Shown here piece by piece: positions 56,510 through 58,873 of a DNA stretch of 64,000 bases. The notes under the pieces are model-generated. The model saw only the letters and a list, made by a program, of their open reading frames with translations. It had not been told where the DNA came from and ran no database searches. Both the position numbers and the translations under genes were made by a program. Positions within the stretch are counted from its first letter, which is position 1, and the number at the start of each line of letters is the position of its first letter. Source of the DNA: Halopelagius inordinatus (GTDB taxonomy: Archaea; Halobacteriota; Halobacteria; Halobacteriales; Haloferacaceae); the NCBI RefSeq assembly GCF_900113245.1, contig NZ_FOOQ01000001.1:434001-498000 (forward strand), written 5' to 3'.

Positions 56510-57712
56510 TTACCGGATGACGTCCAGTCCGTTGTTGGTGTCGGACTGGTCGCGTCCGCCGTCGGACTGCCACGACCCGCCGTTGCGAGACGTGCCGGAC
56601 GACGGGTTCGGGGCTTCGACGTTGTTGCTCGCGTCGAACTCCGAAGCCGATTCGATGCTCTGTCGGGATTTGTCGGCCTGTTTCTGCGTCGTCGGACCCA
56701 GAACCTGGGCCGACTGAACGCCGGTCATGATGGCCATGACGCGGACTTTGCCCTTGTACTCGTCTTGGATGCGAGCGCCCCAGATGACGTTCGCGGACGC
56801 TTCGAGGCGTTCCGTGATGTTGTTCGCGATTCCTTCGGCCTCTTTCAGGGTGAGGTCCGGACCGCCCGTGATGTGGACGAGGCCGCCGGATGCGCCTCGG
56901 TAGTCCACGTCGAGAAGCGGGTGGTTCATCGCGTCGTTGACGACCTCTTGGGTCTTGTTTTTGTCCTGCGTCTCGCCGACGAGCATCACCGCGACGCCGC
57001 CCTGGTTCATGATGGTGGACATGTCCGCGTAGTCCAGGTTGATGAGCGAGGGTTGAGTGATGGTCTCGGAGATGCCTTTGACCGTCTCCGCGATGATCTG
57101 GTCCATCACGGAGAACGCCTTCCCGATGGGGAGGTTGGGCACGTAGTCCAGCAGGCGGTTGTTGTCGAGGACGATGATGGAGTCCGCTTCGTTGCGGAGT
57201 TTCTCCAGTCCTTCCTCGGCTTTCACCGTGCGCGCACGCTCGACGTTGAACGGCGTCGAGACCATGCCCACGACGATGGCTCCCTGCTCTTTTGCTATCT
57301 TCGAGACGACGGGTGCCGCACCGGTCCCGGTGCCACCGCCCATACCGGCGGTGACGAACACGAGGTCTGCGTTGCCGAGAACCTCTTTTATCGTCCCTTG
57401 GGCCATCTCGGTGGCGCGCTCGCCCATCGAGGGGTCGCCGCCAGCGCCGAGGCCCTGCGTGAGGGATTTGCCGACCAGAATCTTCGTGTCGGCCTCTATC
57501 ATCTTGAGGTGCTGTTTGTCGGTGTTGATAGCCACCGTCTCGGCACCGTCTACGCCGATGTTGTAGAGTCGGTTTATCGTGTTGTTACCAGCGCCGCCGC
57601 AGCCGACGATGACGATTCGGGGGTCACCGAATCCGTCGTCATCGTCGGCCATGTCGGCGGCCTGTTTCTCTGCCTCGTCGCGTTCCATGGCCTCTCTGAC
57701 GATATCCTGCAT
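56510..57712 (-). CDS. ftsZ2: tubulin-like cell division protein FtsZ2
   Basis: The 400-residue GTPase acts in ring constriction in archaeal division. It starts [16 protein letters not shown] and has the GTP loops [17 protein letters not shown] and [14 protein letters not shown], the T7 synergy loop [12 protein letters not shown], and a Ser/Asn/Gly-rich C-terminal tail (about 350-400). Haloarchaea carry FtsZ1 and FtsZ2; the preceding cdrS gene identifies this as FtsZ2. The gap to the cdrS stop is 4 bp, so they form an operon. Confidence 0.95.
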
Positions 57713-57716
57713 CGTC

Positions 57717-57896
57717 TTACACCTTGGCCCAGGTTCGCTTGCCCGAGCGCTCGCGGTTCTCGGACTGCTGTTCGTTGAGCATCTCGCGAACCGCTGAACG
57801 GATGGCCTCACTCCGGTTCGGGAACTCCCCGGTTTCGACCATGCGCTCAACTTCCTCGATCTGCTGCTTCGGAATTCGTAGTGTCACACGCTCCAT
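57717..57896 (-). CDS. cdrS: ribbon-helix-helix regulator CdrS
   Basis: The 59-residue protein consists of one RHH domain: [20 protein letters not shown] then [18 protein letters not shown] and a short basic tail. In Halobacterium and Haloferax, CdrS is co-transcribed with ftsZ2 and controls division genes. It is preceded by a leader of about 120 nt containing GTAAGACG repeats. Confidence 0.92.
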
Positions 57897-57913
57897 ATTC
57901 TTACATTCCCCCG

Positions 57914-58067
57914 GTAAGACGGCGCGCACTCCTGTGCGAACGTCTTACACACCCGAAAACGCGGGACCGAGAGCCGTTCTCCCCACGAGGGCGGTGTGTA
58001 AGACGACCGTCTTACGCGAGAGTTACCACAGAGCGGTAACTTATAAATGTAACGGCGGGTGTAAGAC
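57914..58067 (-). promoter_or_regulatory. cdrS-ftsZ2 regulatory region with GTAAGACG repeats
   Basis: The 8-mer GTAAGACG or its complement occurs at 57914-57921, 57941-57948, 57998-58005 and 58008-58015. The last two form the perfect palindrome GTAAGACGACCGTCTTAC. A 7-base partial GTAAGAC is at 58061-58067. A TATA box (ATTTATAAG on the minus strand, 58040-58048) puts the transcription start near 58015-58020, right at the palindrome. RHH proteins typically bind such short dyads, so this is a likely CdrL/CdrS operator. Confidence 0.75.
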
Positions 58068-58106
58068 AAAGGGGTCGAAACGGCGTATACGGAGGGTTGA
58101 CGGAGG

Positions 58107-58664
58107 CTACGAGCGTTCGAGCACGTCAGCAGCGGATGTCCGGCGGCCGCACCCGGGGCAGAACGCCCAATCGGAGCGGAGTTCGTCCCCGCATTCGCAG
58201 AACACGCGGTGGTTGGCCTTCTCGCCGCAGTTGGGACAGTAGACGTGTTCGTCGGACACGCTCTCGCCGCACTTCTCGCAGGTGTTTGCGCCGTCTTCGG
58301 CGGCCGTCTCGGCGTCGTCGGTCTCTGTCTTACGTTTTTCGACCGATTCTGTCGTCTCCGCGCCGTTCACGCCGTCTTCGGTCGTCGTCACGCCCTCTAC
58401 CGTGAGGTTGACGTTGACGTCTCGCGGAGCGGCGGTCCGTCGGTCGAGGCGGTCTGCGAGGAGTTCGTCGACTCGTTCCGTGACTAGTTCGTCGACGCGG
58501 GCGGTGAGCGTCTCGTCTATCGGATCGGACGCGTCGGACGTGTCGCGTTCCGCGCGGTCGAGGTACGTGCGCAGTGCGTCGCGCATCACCTCGCTCTTCG
58601 AGGTCTCTCCCGCCTCGAGTCGCTCGACGAGGTCGTCGTCGGCGCGGAACGTTATCTTACTCAT
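58107..58664 (-). CDS. cdrL: CdrL: RHH regulator with C-terminal zinc ribbons
   Basis: The 185-residue protein has an N-terminal RHH (MSKITFRADDDLVERLEAGETSKSEVMRDALR), a low-complexity acidic middle with predicted coiled helices (about 50-120), and two zinc ribbons (CEKCGESVSDEHVYCPNCG and CECGDELRSDWAFCPGCG). This long partner of CdrS directly controls the cdrS-ftsZ2 operon in Halobacterium. It lies immediately upstream on the same strand, separated by the operator region. Confidence 0.9.
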   Translation of the reverse strand: MSKITFRADDDLVERLEAGETSKSEVMRDALRTYLDRAERDTSDASDPIDETLTARVDELVTERVDELLADRLDRRTAAPRDVNVNLTVEGVTTTEDGVNGAETTESVEKRKTETDDAETAAEDGANTCEKCGESVSDEHVYCPNCGEKANHRVFCECGDELRSDWAFCPGCGRRTSAADVLERS

Positions 58665-58768: not shown

Positions 58769-58842
58769 CCGCTCTTAGCTCAGCCTGGTAGAGCAGCCGA
58801 CTGTAGATCGGCATGTCCCCCGTTCAATTCGGGGAGAGCGGA
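58769..58842 (+). tRNA. tRNA-Tyr (anticodon GTA)
   Basis: The acceptor is CCGCTCT/AGAGCGG with discriminator A. The anticodon stem-loop CCGA-CTGTAGA-TCGG gives GTA, and the T arm is CCCCG-TTCAATT-CGGGG. The C1-G72 pair is the archaeal Tyr identity element. Confidence 0.95.
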
Positions 58843-58873
58843 CTCGTTTTCGCGAAGGCTACCGGCTGAGAGC

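Follow-up and report, generated by a model that had tools for sequence, protein, structure and literature searches.

Operators of ribbon-helix-helix (RHH) proteins such as Arc, MetJ, NikR and the omega repressor consist of short repeated words, bound by dimers about one helical turn apart. The repeats described here differ from these in that their spacing varies from 2 to 6, a copy lies across the TATA box, and the words are reused as RNA stems. The closest described systems are two haloarchaeal regulators of cell division. In Halobacterium salinarum, ChIP-seq of CdrL reproducibly detected binding only in the region preceding cdrS-ftsZ2, according to the accessible portion of PMC7439475, and our locus shares with that system the promoter region, the RHH regulator and the single target. 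No motif or RNA structure is given in that portion, and the word 'motif' is absent from the paper's text, whereas here we describe sites, their class-wide conservation and a leader fold. In Haloferax volcanii, the accessible portion of PMC8406309 reports 18 ChIP sites for CdrS. One of these belongs to ftsZ1 (at -50), and none to the cdrS promoter; a 5' UTR for cdrS is shown in Fig. 2 of the same paper. This regulon likewise involves a symmetric motif near division-gene promoters, but the form that we infer for it, GTCNGAC-N4-GTCNGAC, differs from the GTAAGAC found upstream of cdrS. In one library of open-access literature, no paper on a GTAAGAC motif in archaea appeared among the matches listed (by title and start of abstract), nothing on cdrS appeared among those listed for structured leaders, and CdrL together with Halobacterium appeared only in PMC7439475.

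The window, i.e. the whole 64,000-nt stretch of Halopelagius inordinatus DNA analysed, carries cdrL, cdrS and ftsZ2 in this order on its minus strand (Table 1). The ftsZ2 start, placed via a conserved MQDIV behind the cdrS stop, lies 4 nt past that stop. A tRNA-Tyr gene (anticodon GTA; 58769-58843, plus strand) adjoins the 5' end of cdrL. Both CdrL and CdrS match Pfam RHH_1, in agreement with the original prediction that they are RHH proteins. That prediction had also counted four copies of GTAAGACG plus a GTAAGAC partial (58061-58067) between cdrL and cdrS, which exact matching confirmed. The window holds exactly 5 copies of GTAAGACG, all inside 303 bp, although the count alone is weak evidence, as 2.57 are expected and 5 were reached by 7 of 100 shuffles. 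Two of the copies make up GTAAGACGNNCGTCTTAC (O2-O3, 18 bp), which occurs once in the 3.53-Mb genome. It had been described as a perfect 18-bp palindrome; its 8-bp arms are indeed perfect, but the AC in the middle is not palindromic. Its first heptamer begins 32 nt downstream of the TATA box start, which places the pair, as proposed, at the predicted transcription start. An inverted repeat, GTTACC-N7-GGTAAC, lies between the TATA box and the start site (58022-58040) and is partly kept in close relatives. The fifth copy of GTAAGACG had been taken for a further site at the cdrS stop (57713-57720). It consists of the Val and stop codons GTG TAA followed by a non-conserved GACG: GTG TAA is kept in relatives while GACG varies, with GTGTAACGATG or similar in most of them. 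The original prediction had also suggested scanning the genome for sites near other division genes, and the scan found the exact palindrome only at cdrS.

Table 1. Features of the cdrL-cdrS-ftsZ2 locus, in window coordinates
Feature	Position	Strand	Description
cdrL	58107..58664	-	RHH domain, CdrL_M middle region, double zinc ribbon (Pfam RHH_1, CdrL_M, DZR)
O1	58061..58067	not assigned	GTCTTAC along operon strand; upstream of TATA; DNA level only
TATA box of cdrS-ftsZ2 promoter	58041..58047	-	TTTATAA (sequence)
O2	58009..58015	-	GTAAGAC; palindrome arm 1 and 5' strand of predicted RNA stem P1
O3	57998..58004	-	GTCTTAC; palindrome arm 2 and 5' strand of predicted RNA stem P2
O4	57942..57948	-	GTAAGAC; 3' strand of predicted RNA stem P2
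O5	57914..57920	-	GTCTTAC; 3' strand of predicted RNA stem P1; adjoins ribosome-binding site
GTAAGACG copies	57914-57921, 57941-57948, 57998-58005, 58008-58015, 57713-57720	+, -, +, -, -	exact matches in window
Predicted 5' leader of cdrS-ftsZ2 mRNA	57897..58017	-	predicted three-way junction; start inferred from TATA distance
P3 hairpin	57925..57938	-	predicted, between O4 and O5; in MFE and centroid
GGGGGAA	57906..57912	-	Shine-Dalgarno-like; directly behind P1; unpaired in MFE
cdrS	57717..57896	-	59-aa RHH protein (Pfam RHH_1)
ftsZ2	56510..57712	-	Tubulin and FtsZ_C domains (Pfam) in enclosing frame 56510-57850

We surveyed 292 haloarchaeal genomes passing a completeness filter of 85%. GTAAGAC-N2-6-GTCTTAC was present in 286 of these, once per genome in 285 and twice in one, while the reversed pattern, which served as a control, occurred in only 4 of the 292; GTAAGACNNNNGTCTTAC was matched in 233. 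These palindrome counts, in the genome of the window and across the class, point to a single genomic target at cdrS-ftsZ2. Four of the six genomes without the pattern carry variants of it (G006/L016, G009/L034, G072/L103, G305/L257), and another of the six, G034, lies outside the set of loci read. We found cdrS in 291 genomes and CdrL in 281. The sixth genome without the pattern, G252, is the only one of the class in which neither was detected, possibly due to an assembly gap.

Of 195 haloarchaeal cdrS loci read, 173 had a distinct 200-nt upstream sequence and were kept. All 173 promoters contain the O2-O3 pair, 167 in strict form and 6 with one altered heptamer, so the repeats withstood the refutation test that the original prediction had set itself, conservation upstream of cdrS in relatives. 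What is conserved is the heptamer GTAAGAC, with a density of 4.36 per 200 nt in these promoters compared to 0.033 in dinucleotide shuffles; thus, as in known RHH operators, short repeated and inverted words are found at the promoter above chance. The two heptamers are separated by spacers of 4 (126 promoters), 5 (33), 2 (6), 3 (5) or 6 (3), and 167 of the 173 promoters have a TATA box whose start precedes O2 by 32 or 33 nt. Exact O4 is present in 113 promoters and exact O5 in 158. The strand of O4 and O5 is fixed across promoters, whereas that of O1 flips.

Being upstream of the TATA box, O1 is not part of the predicted transcript. We found it in 150 of the 173 promoters, as GTCTTAC (85), GTAAGAC (48), GTCATAC (15) or GTATGAC (2). 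The copy nearest O2 starts 51-53 nt away in 110 promoters, 61-65 nt in 37, 71 or 73 nt in two and 45 nt in one; distances of 54-60 nt were never found among these 150. Free orientation together with preferred distances would suit a symmetric DNA-binding dimer. We also considered exact helical phasing of O1 and rejected it, as the main distances lie 8-14 nt apart and are best fitted by a single period of 12 rather than 10.5. Our claim is therefore limited to two preferred distances and the gap that separates them.

Downstream of the start site, the heptamers O2-O5 are predicted to pair in RNA. The leader of the window (57894-58017, minus strand; ~120 nt predicted), folded with the ATG, has a minimum free energy (MFE) of -56.4 kcal/mol and a z score of -4.03, and its predicted stems are nested, P1 being O2:O5 and P2 being O3:O4 plus flanks. 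The P3 pairs are not conserved column by column among relatives. In 76 aligned leaders, the GG of the Shine-Dalgarno-like stretch is invariant and its GA nearly so. Such an arrangement resembles structured 5' leaders (riboswitches, leader-peptide-free attenuators) in having a multi-helix junction beside the ribosome-binding site and a possible alternative pairing, here among identical heptamers. Unlike those leaders, it has no Rfam match and no known ligand, and the same word occurs as DNA upstream of the TATA box. The Rfam search of 57500-58300 returned just sub-threshold matches to microRNA models, outside the leader.

Because the heptamers are nearly invariant, we tested their flanks for pairing. 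Across promoters with the sites concerned, pairing between the downstream flank of O2 and the upstream flank of O5 exceeds that with shuffled partners at +1 to +3 (z = 7.9, 6.5 and 4.9; n = 158), as does pairing between the O3 and O4 flanks at positions 1-4 (z = 2.6, 3.4, 6.2 and 3.2; n = 113). Flanks on the loop side of O2:O3 and of O4:O5 had no such excess across the promoters that carry these sites. An O4:O5 hairpin, suspected by eye to be the main fold, was discarded, since O2:O5 and O3:O4 are preferred in folding and supported by covariation. Exact copies of all four heptamers occur in 105 leaders, of which we took 76 non-redundant ones; as these were selected on exact heptamers, only their flanks and choice of partner are informative. 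In this set, covariation supports P1 at +2 and +3 (1 of 1000 shuffles each) and P2 at +1 to +5 (19, 3, 0, 19 and 8 of 1000), in tests that ignore phylogeny; P1 +1 gave no signal among the 76. At P2 +3 the pair types include C-G (21), A-T (10) and G-C (9). Among the slid-register controls, the only excess was that of P1 +1 shifted by one position (z = 3.0). Nested P1 and P2 are the predicted pairing in 75 of the 76 leaders, and O2:O3 plus O4:O5 in one. RNAalifold, applied to 38 Haloferacaceae leaders, returned P1 alone.

The held-out set comprised 46 non-redundant leaders in which O5 is exact but an exact O4 is missing. Relative to interval-shuffled sequences in which O2, O3 and O5 were kept, their predicted pairing probability is 0.89 versus 0.36 for P1 and 0.70 versus 0.21 for P2, with a mean z of -2.63; hence they, like the window leader, are predicted to be more stable than shuffles. 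P2 is often rebuilt from other sequence where exact O4 is missing (e.g. L026, L041, L090, L097, L122), and L111, one leader of this kind, favours an O2:O3 hairpin. Among one-mismatch O4 variants, a check for wobble bias gave 8 of 21, no clear sign of such a bias. A covariance model built from the 76 leaders was searched against 51 haloarchaeal loci outside the alignment, 20 loci from outside Halobacteria, 15 ftsZ1 loci and the window. It scored 96.2 bits on the window (57894-58018), whose sequence is part of the model's own alignment, and found 47 of the 51 haloarchaeal loci (E <= 1e-7), including eight without CdrL. The four of the 51 that it missed are L104 (E = 0.12), L105, L106 and L257, and in the last three the leader fold is absent. 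None of the 20 loci from outside the class was found. Some weak hits appeared on the opposite strand and at ftsZ1 (five loci, 23 bits at best), probably owing to the symmetry of the heptamers. In Hbt. salinarum, cdrS and ftsZ2 mRNA climbs over growth without matching ribosome occupancy, and post-transcriptional control of cdrS-ftsZ2 has been proposed from this comparison of RNA-seq and Ribo-seq (PMC8303175, accessible portion). The mismatch fits an RNA layer but is no proof of it.

In the ftsZ1 promoters of 15 Haloferacaceae genomes, we counted 28 copies of a sister motif, GTCNGAC, spread over 14 of the 15, and GTAAGAC in none; the known CdrS target ftsZ1 thus bears a motif other than that at cdrS. 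The genome of the window contains GTCNGAC-N4-GTCNGAC three times: at ftsZ1, at sepF (Pfam SepF) and at the 3' end of a DUF7553 gene (L004). The copies just upstream of sepF and ftsZ1 (L002 1501-1518, L006 1501-1518) are candidate CdrS sites. GTCNGAC, in the form GTCNGAC-N4-GTCNGAC, would be the CdrS motif. Given that the ftsZ1 and sepF promoters bear GTCNGAC, CdrS is unlikely to be the main reader of GTAAGAC. A CdrS-type GTCTGAC also occurs in some leaders between O4 and O5, within GCGTCTGACAGGGG (L045, L046, L049, L077, L081 and other f4 loci).

A sample of 110 genomes from the phylum gave a CdrS match at E <= 1e-5 in 57, of which 40 lie outside the class. We read 20 of these 40, every one a strong match (L237-L256), and ftsZ lies downstream of cdrS in all 20. 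Their cdrS-ftsZ promoters contain 45 copies of GTCNGAC (2.25 per region versus 0.017 expected), with at least one in each of the 20, and GTAAGAC is absent from all 20. The copies are spaced by multiples of 11 bp, and the arrays reach as far as the ribosome-binding site. Measuring from exact copies to near-exact ones gave 93 ordered distances within 7-49 bp, 88 of which equal 11, 22, 33 or 44. GTATGAC and GTCATAC heptamers occur in register within them. NikR is among the solved-structure matches of CdrS, and its half-site GTATGA resembles GTATGAC. Strand residues R3-T5-R7 of CdrS are identical in Halobacteria and non-Halobacteria, and CdrL has K3-T5-R7; from RHH structures, we take positions 3, 5 and 7 to be base contacts. 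No zinc-ribbon ORF adjoins cdrS at the 20 loci, and full CdrL was not found genome-wide in the 20 genomes, where the weak matches are mostly to the zinc ribbon. Outside the class, then, where CdrL is absent, GTAAGAC is absent too. Leaders of these non-Halobacteria have a mean z of -2.43 against dinucleotide shuffles, and of -1.34 when the heptamers are kept; they thus fold better than shuffles, less so with heptamers retained, and we do not take this to indicate an RNA shared with Halobacteria.

Within the class, the repeats are not confined to genomes with CdrL. Ten genomes that bear cdrS lack CdrL (G016, G060, G061, G065, G127, G164, G166, G207, G281, G302), the absence having been checked at the locus and, for seven, by a second genome-wide search. 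All ten retain O2/O3 and O5, so CdrL is not the only constraint on these sites. O1, on the other hand, is found in 4 of the 10 compared to 146 of 164 CdrL-adjacent promoters, and exact O4 in 1 of the 10 compared to 110 of 164 (Fisher P = 5e-4 in each case, ignoring phylogeny). Exact O4 is also missing in CdrL-bearing congeners of G166 and G302. According to the accessible portion of PMC7439475, all sequenced Halobacteria encode CdrL, a statement that the ten genomes contradict.

In our interpretation, the repeat cluster controls the cdrS-ftsZ2 operon in two layers, as DNA operator and as RNA leader, and we put the probability of this reading at roughly 0.6. At the DNA level, GTAAGAC at O1, upstream of the TATA box, and at O2/O3, at the start site, would serve as an operator for RHH dimers that flank the TATA box when bound and thereby gate initiation. 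CdrL is most likely the main reader and would contact the heptamers; CdrS is the probable ancestral reader and may still read the operator where CdrL is missing. The original prediction of a division-gene operator thus holds up with regard to conservation and the CdrL ChIP region (PMC7439475, accessible portion), and finds no support with regard to CdrS as a reader, given GTCNGAC at ftsZ1 and sepF and the CdrS ChIP sites of H. volcanii, which do not include the cdrS promoter. At the RNA level, the transcribed leader is predicted to fold such that P1 and P2 close a three-way junction, its 5' end pairing beside the ribosome-binding site. If this RNA folds and acts in cells, as we suppose from the predicted structures, it probably tunes translation or stability of the cdrS-ftsZ2 message, because the base of the junction directly adjoins the ribosome-binding site. 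One point against the two-layer model is the 2-6 range of O2-O3 spacers, which is unusual for a rigid dimer pair.

The heptamers are invariant in sequence beyond the needs of pairing, the same word stands at O1 yet outside the transcript, O2/O3 variants at five loci (L016, L034, L039, L156, L165) break pairing yet resemble O1 variants, and the 11-bp arrays of the non-Halobacteria suit DNA-bound dimers. Each of these observations could be accommodated by a pure RHH operator array for CdrL, and perhaps CdrS, in which RNA stems are a mere by-product of inverted heptamers. We regard this as unlikely, since the flanks outside the heptamers covary solely in the nested pairing, P2 is rebuilt where O4 is lost, and O4 and O5 hold their strand while O1 flips. 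The opposite view, that conservation of O2-O5 reflects a structured leader, to which a protein or the ribosome may bind, and that something unrelated binds O1, draws on the strong predicted fold of the window leader and on the CdrL-less genomes, with their transcribed O2/O3/O5 and scarce O1. It strikes us as distinctly improbable in light of the recurrence of the heptamer upstream of the TATA box in 150 of 173 promoters, the CdrL ChIP signal at the region (PMC7439475, accessible portion), the invariance in excess of pairing, and the early-branching-looking loci L105 and L106 (and L257), which have the O2/O3 pair without O5. The L105 and L106 arrangement suggests that the DNA layer came first.

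Another reading keeps the operator and changes its reader: GTAAGAC would be read mainly by CdrS, which would thus regulate its own promoter, just as it probably reads GTCNGAC at methanogen-type cdrS-ftsZ promoters. Wherever the operator was read cdrS is present, which is not the case for CdrL; GTATGAC and GTCATAC stand in register within the non-Halobacteria arrays; and R3-T5-R7, at the presumed base-contact positions, is unchanged in CdrS. Set against this are the GTCNGAC of 14 of 15 ftsZ1 promoters, none of which has GTAAGAC, and the lack of the cdrS promoter among the 18 CdrS ChIP sites of H. volcanii (PMC8406309, accessible portion), and we consider autoregulation of this kind quite unlikely. 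As for chance clustering without function, the raw number of GTAAGACG copies in the window is just modestly above expectation, but conservation of position and sequence across the class, with clean controls, refutes this idea, and its probability is negligible.

Returning to the two-layer reading, the data from outside the class suggest that operator specificity moved from GTCNGAC, the word of an ancestral CdrS array, to GTAAGAC in Halobacteria. A bolder scenario is possible and offered only tentatively. A methanogen-like CdrS operator of GTCNGAC words would have turned into GTAAGAC by one base per heptamer, and in most haloarchaea the copies would have become arranged as a switchable three-way junction, such that one word sets FtsZ2 dosage both at transcription, via CdrL or CdrS, and at translation. 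Being identical, the heptamers would permit two exclusive folds, an O2:O3 hairpin first and then O2:O5 with O3:O4.

Little is known about how archaea dose a tubulin-like division protein. The region described here offers a precise, single-copy, class-wide control element with defined bases for mutation. It supplies a candidate CdrL motif, of which we found none in print, and sets it apart from a distinct candidate CdrS motif at ftsZ1 and sepF. Comparison of methanogen-type archaea with haloarchaea makes a change in operator specificity traceable. The larger finding would be that the repeats also serve as predicted stems of a conserved mRNA leader, in an operon for archaeal cell division.
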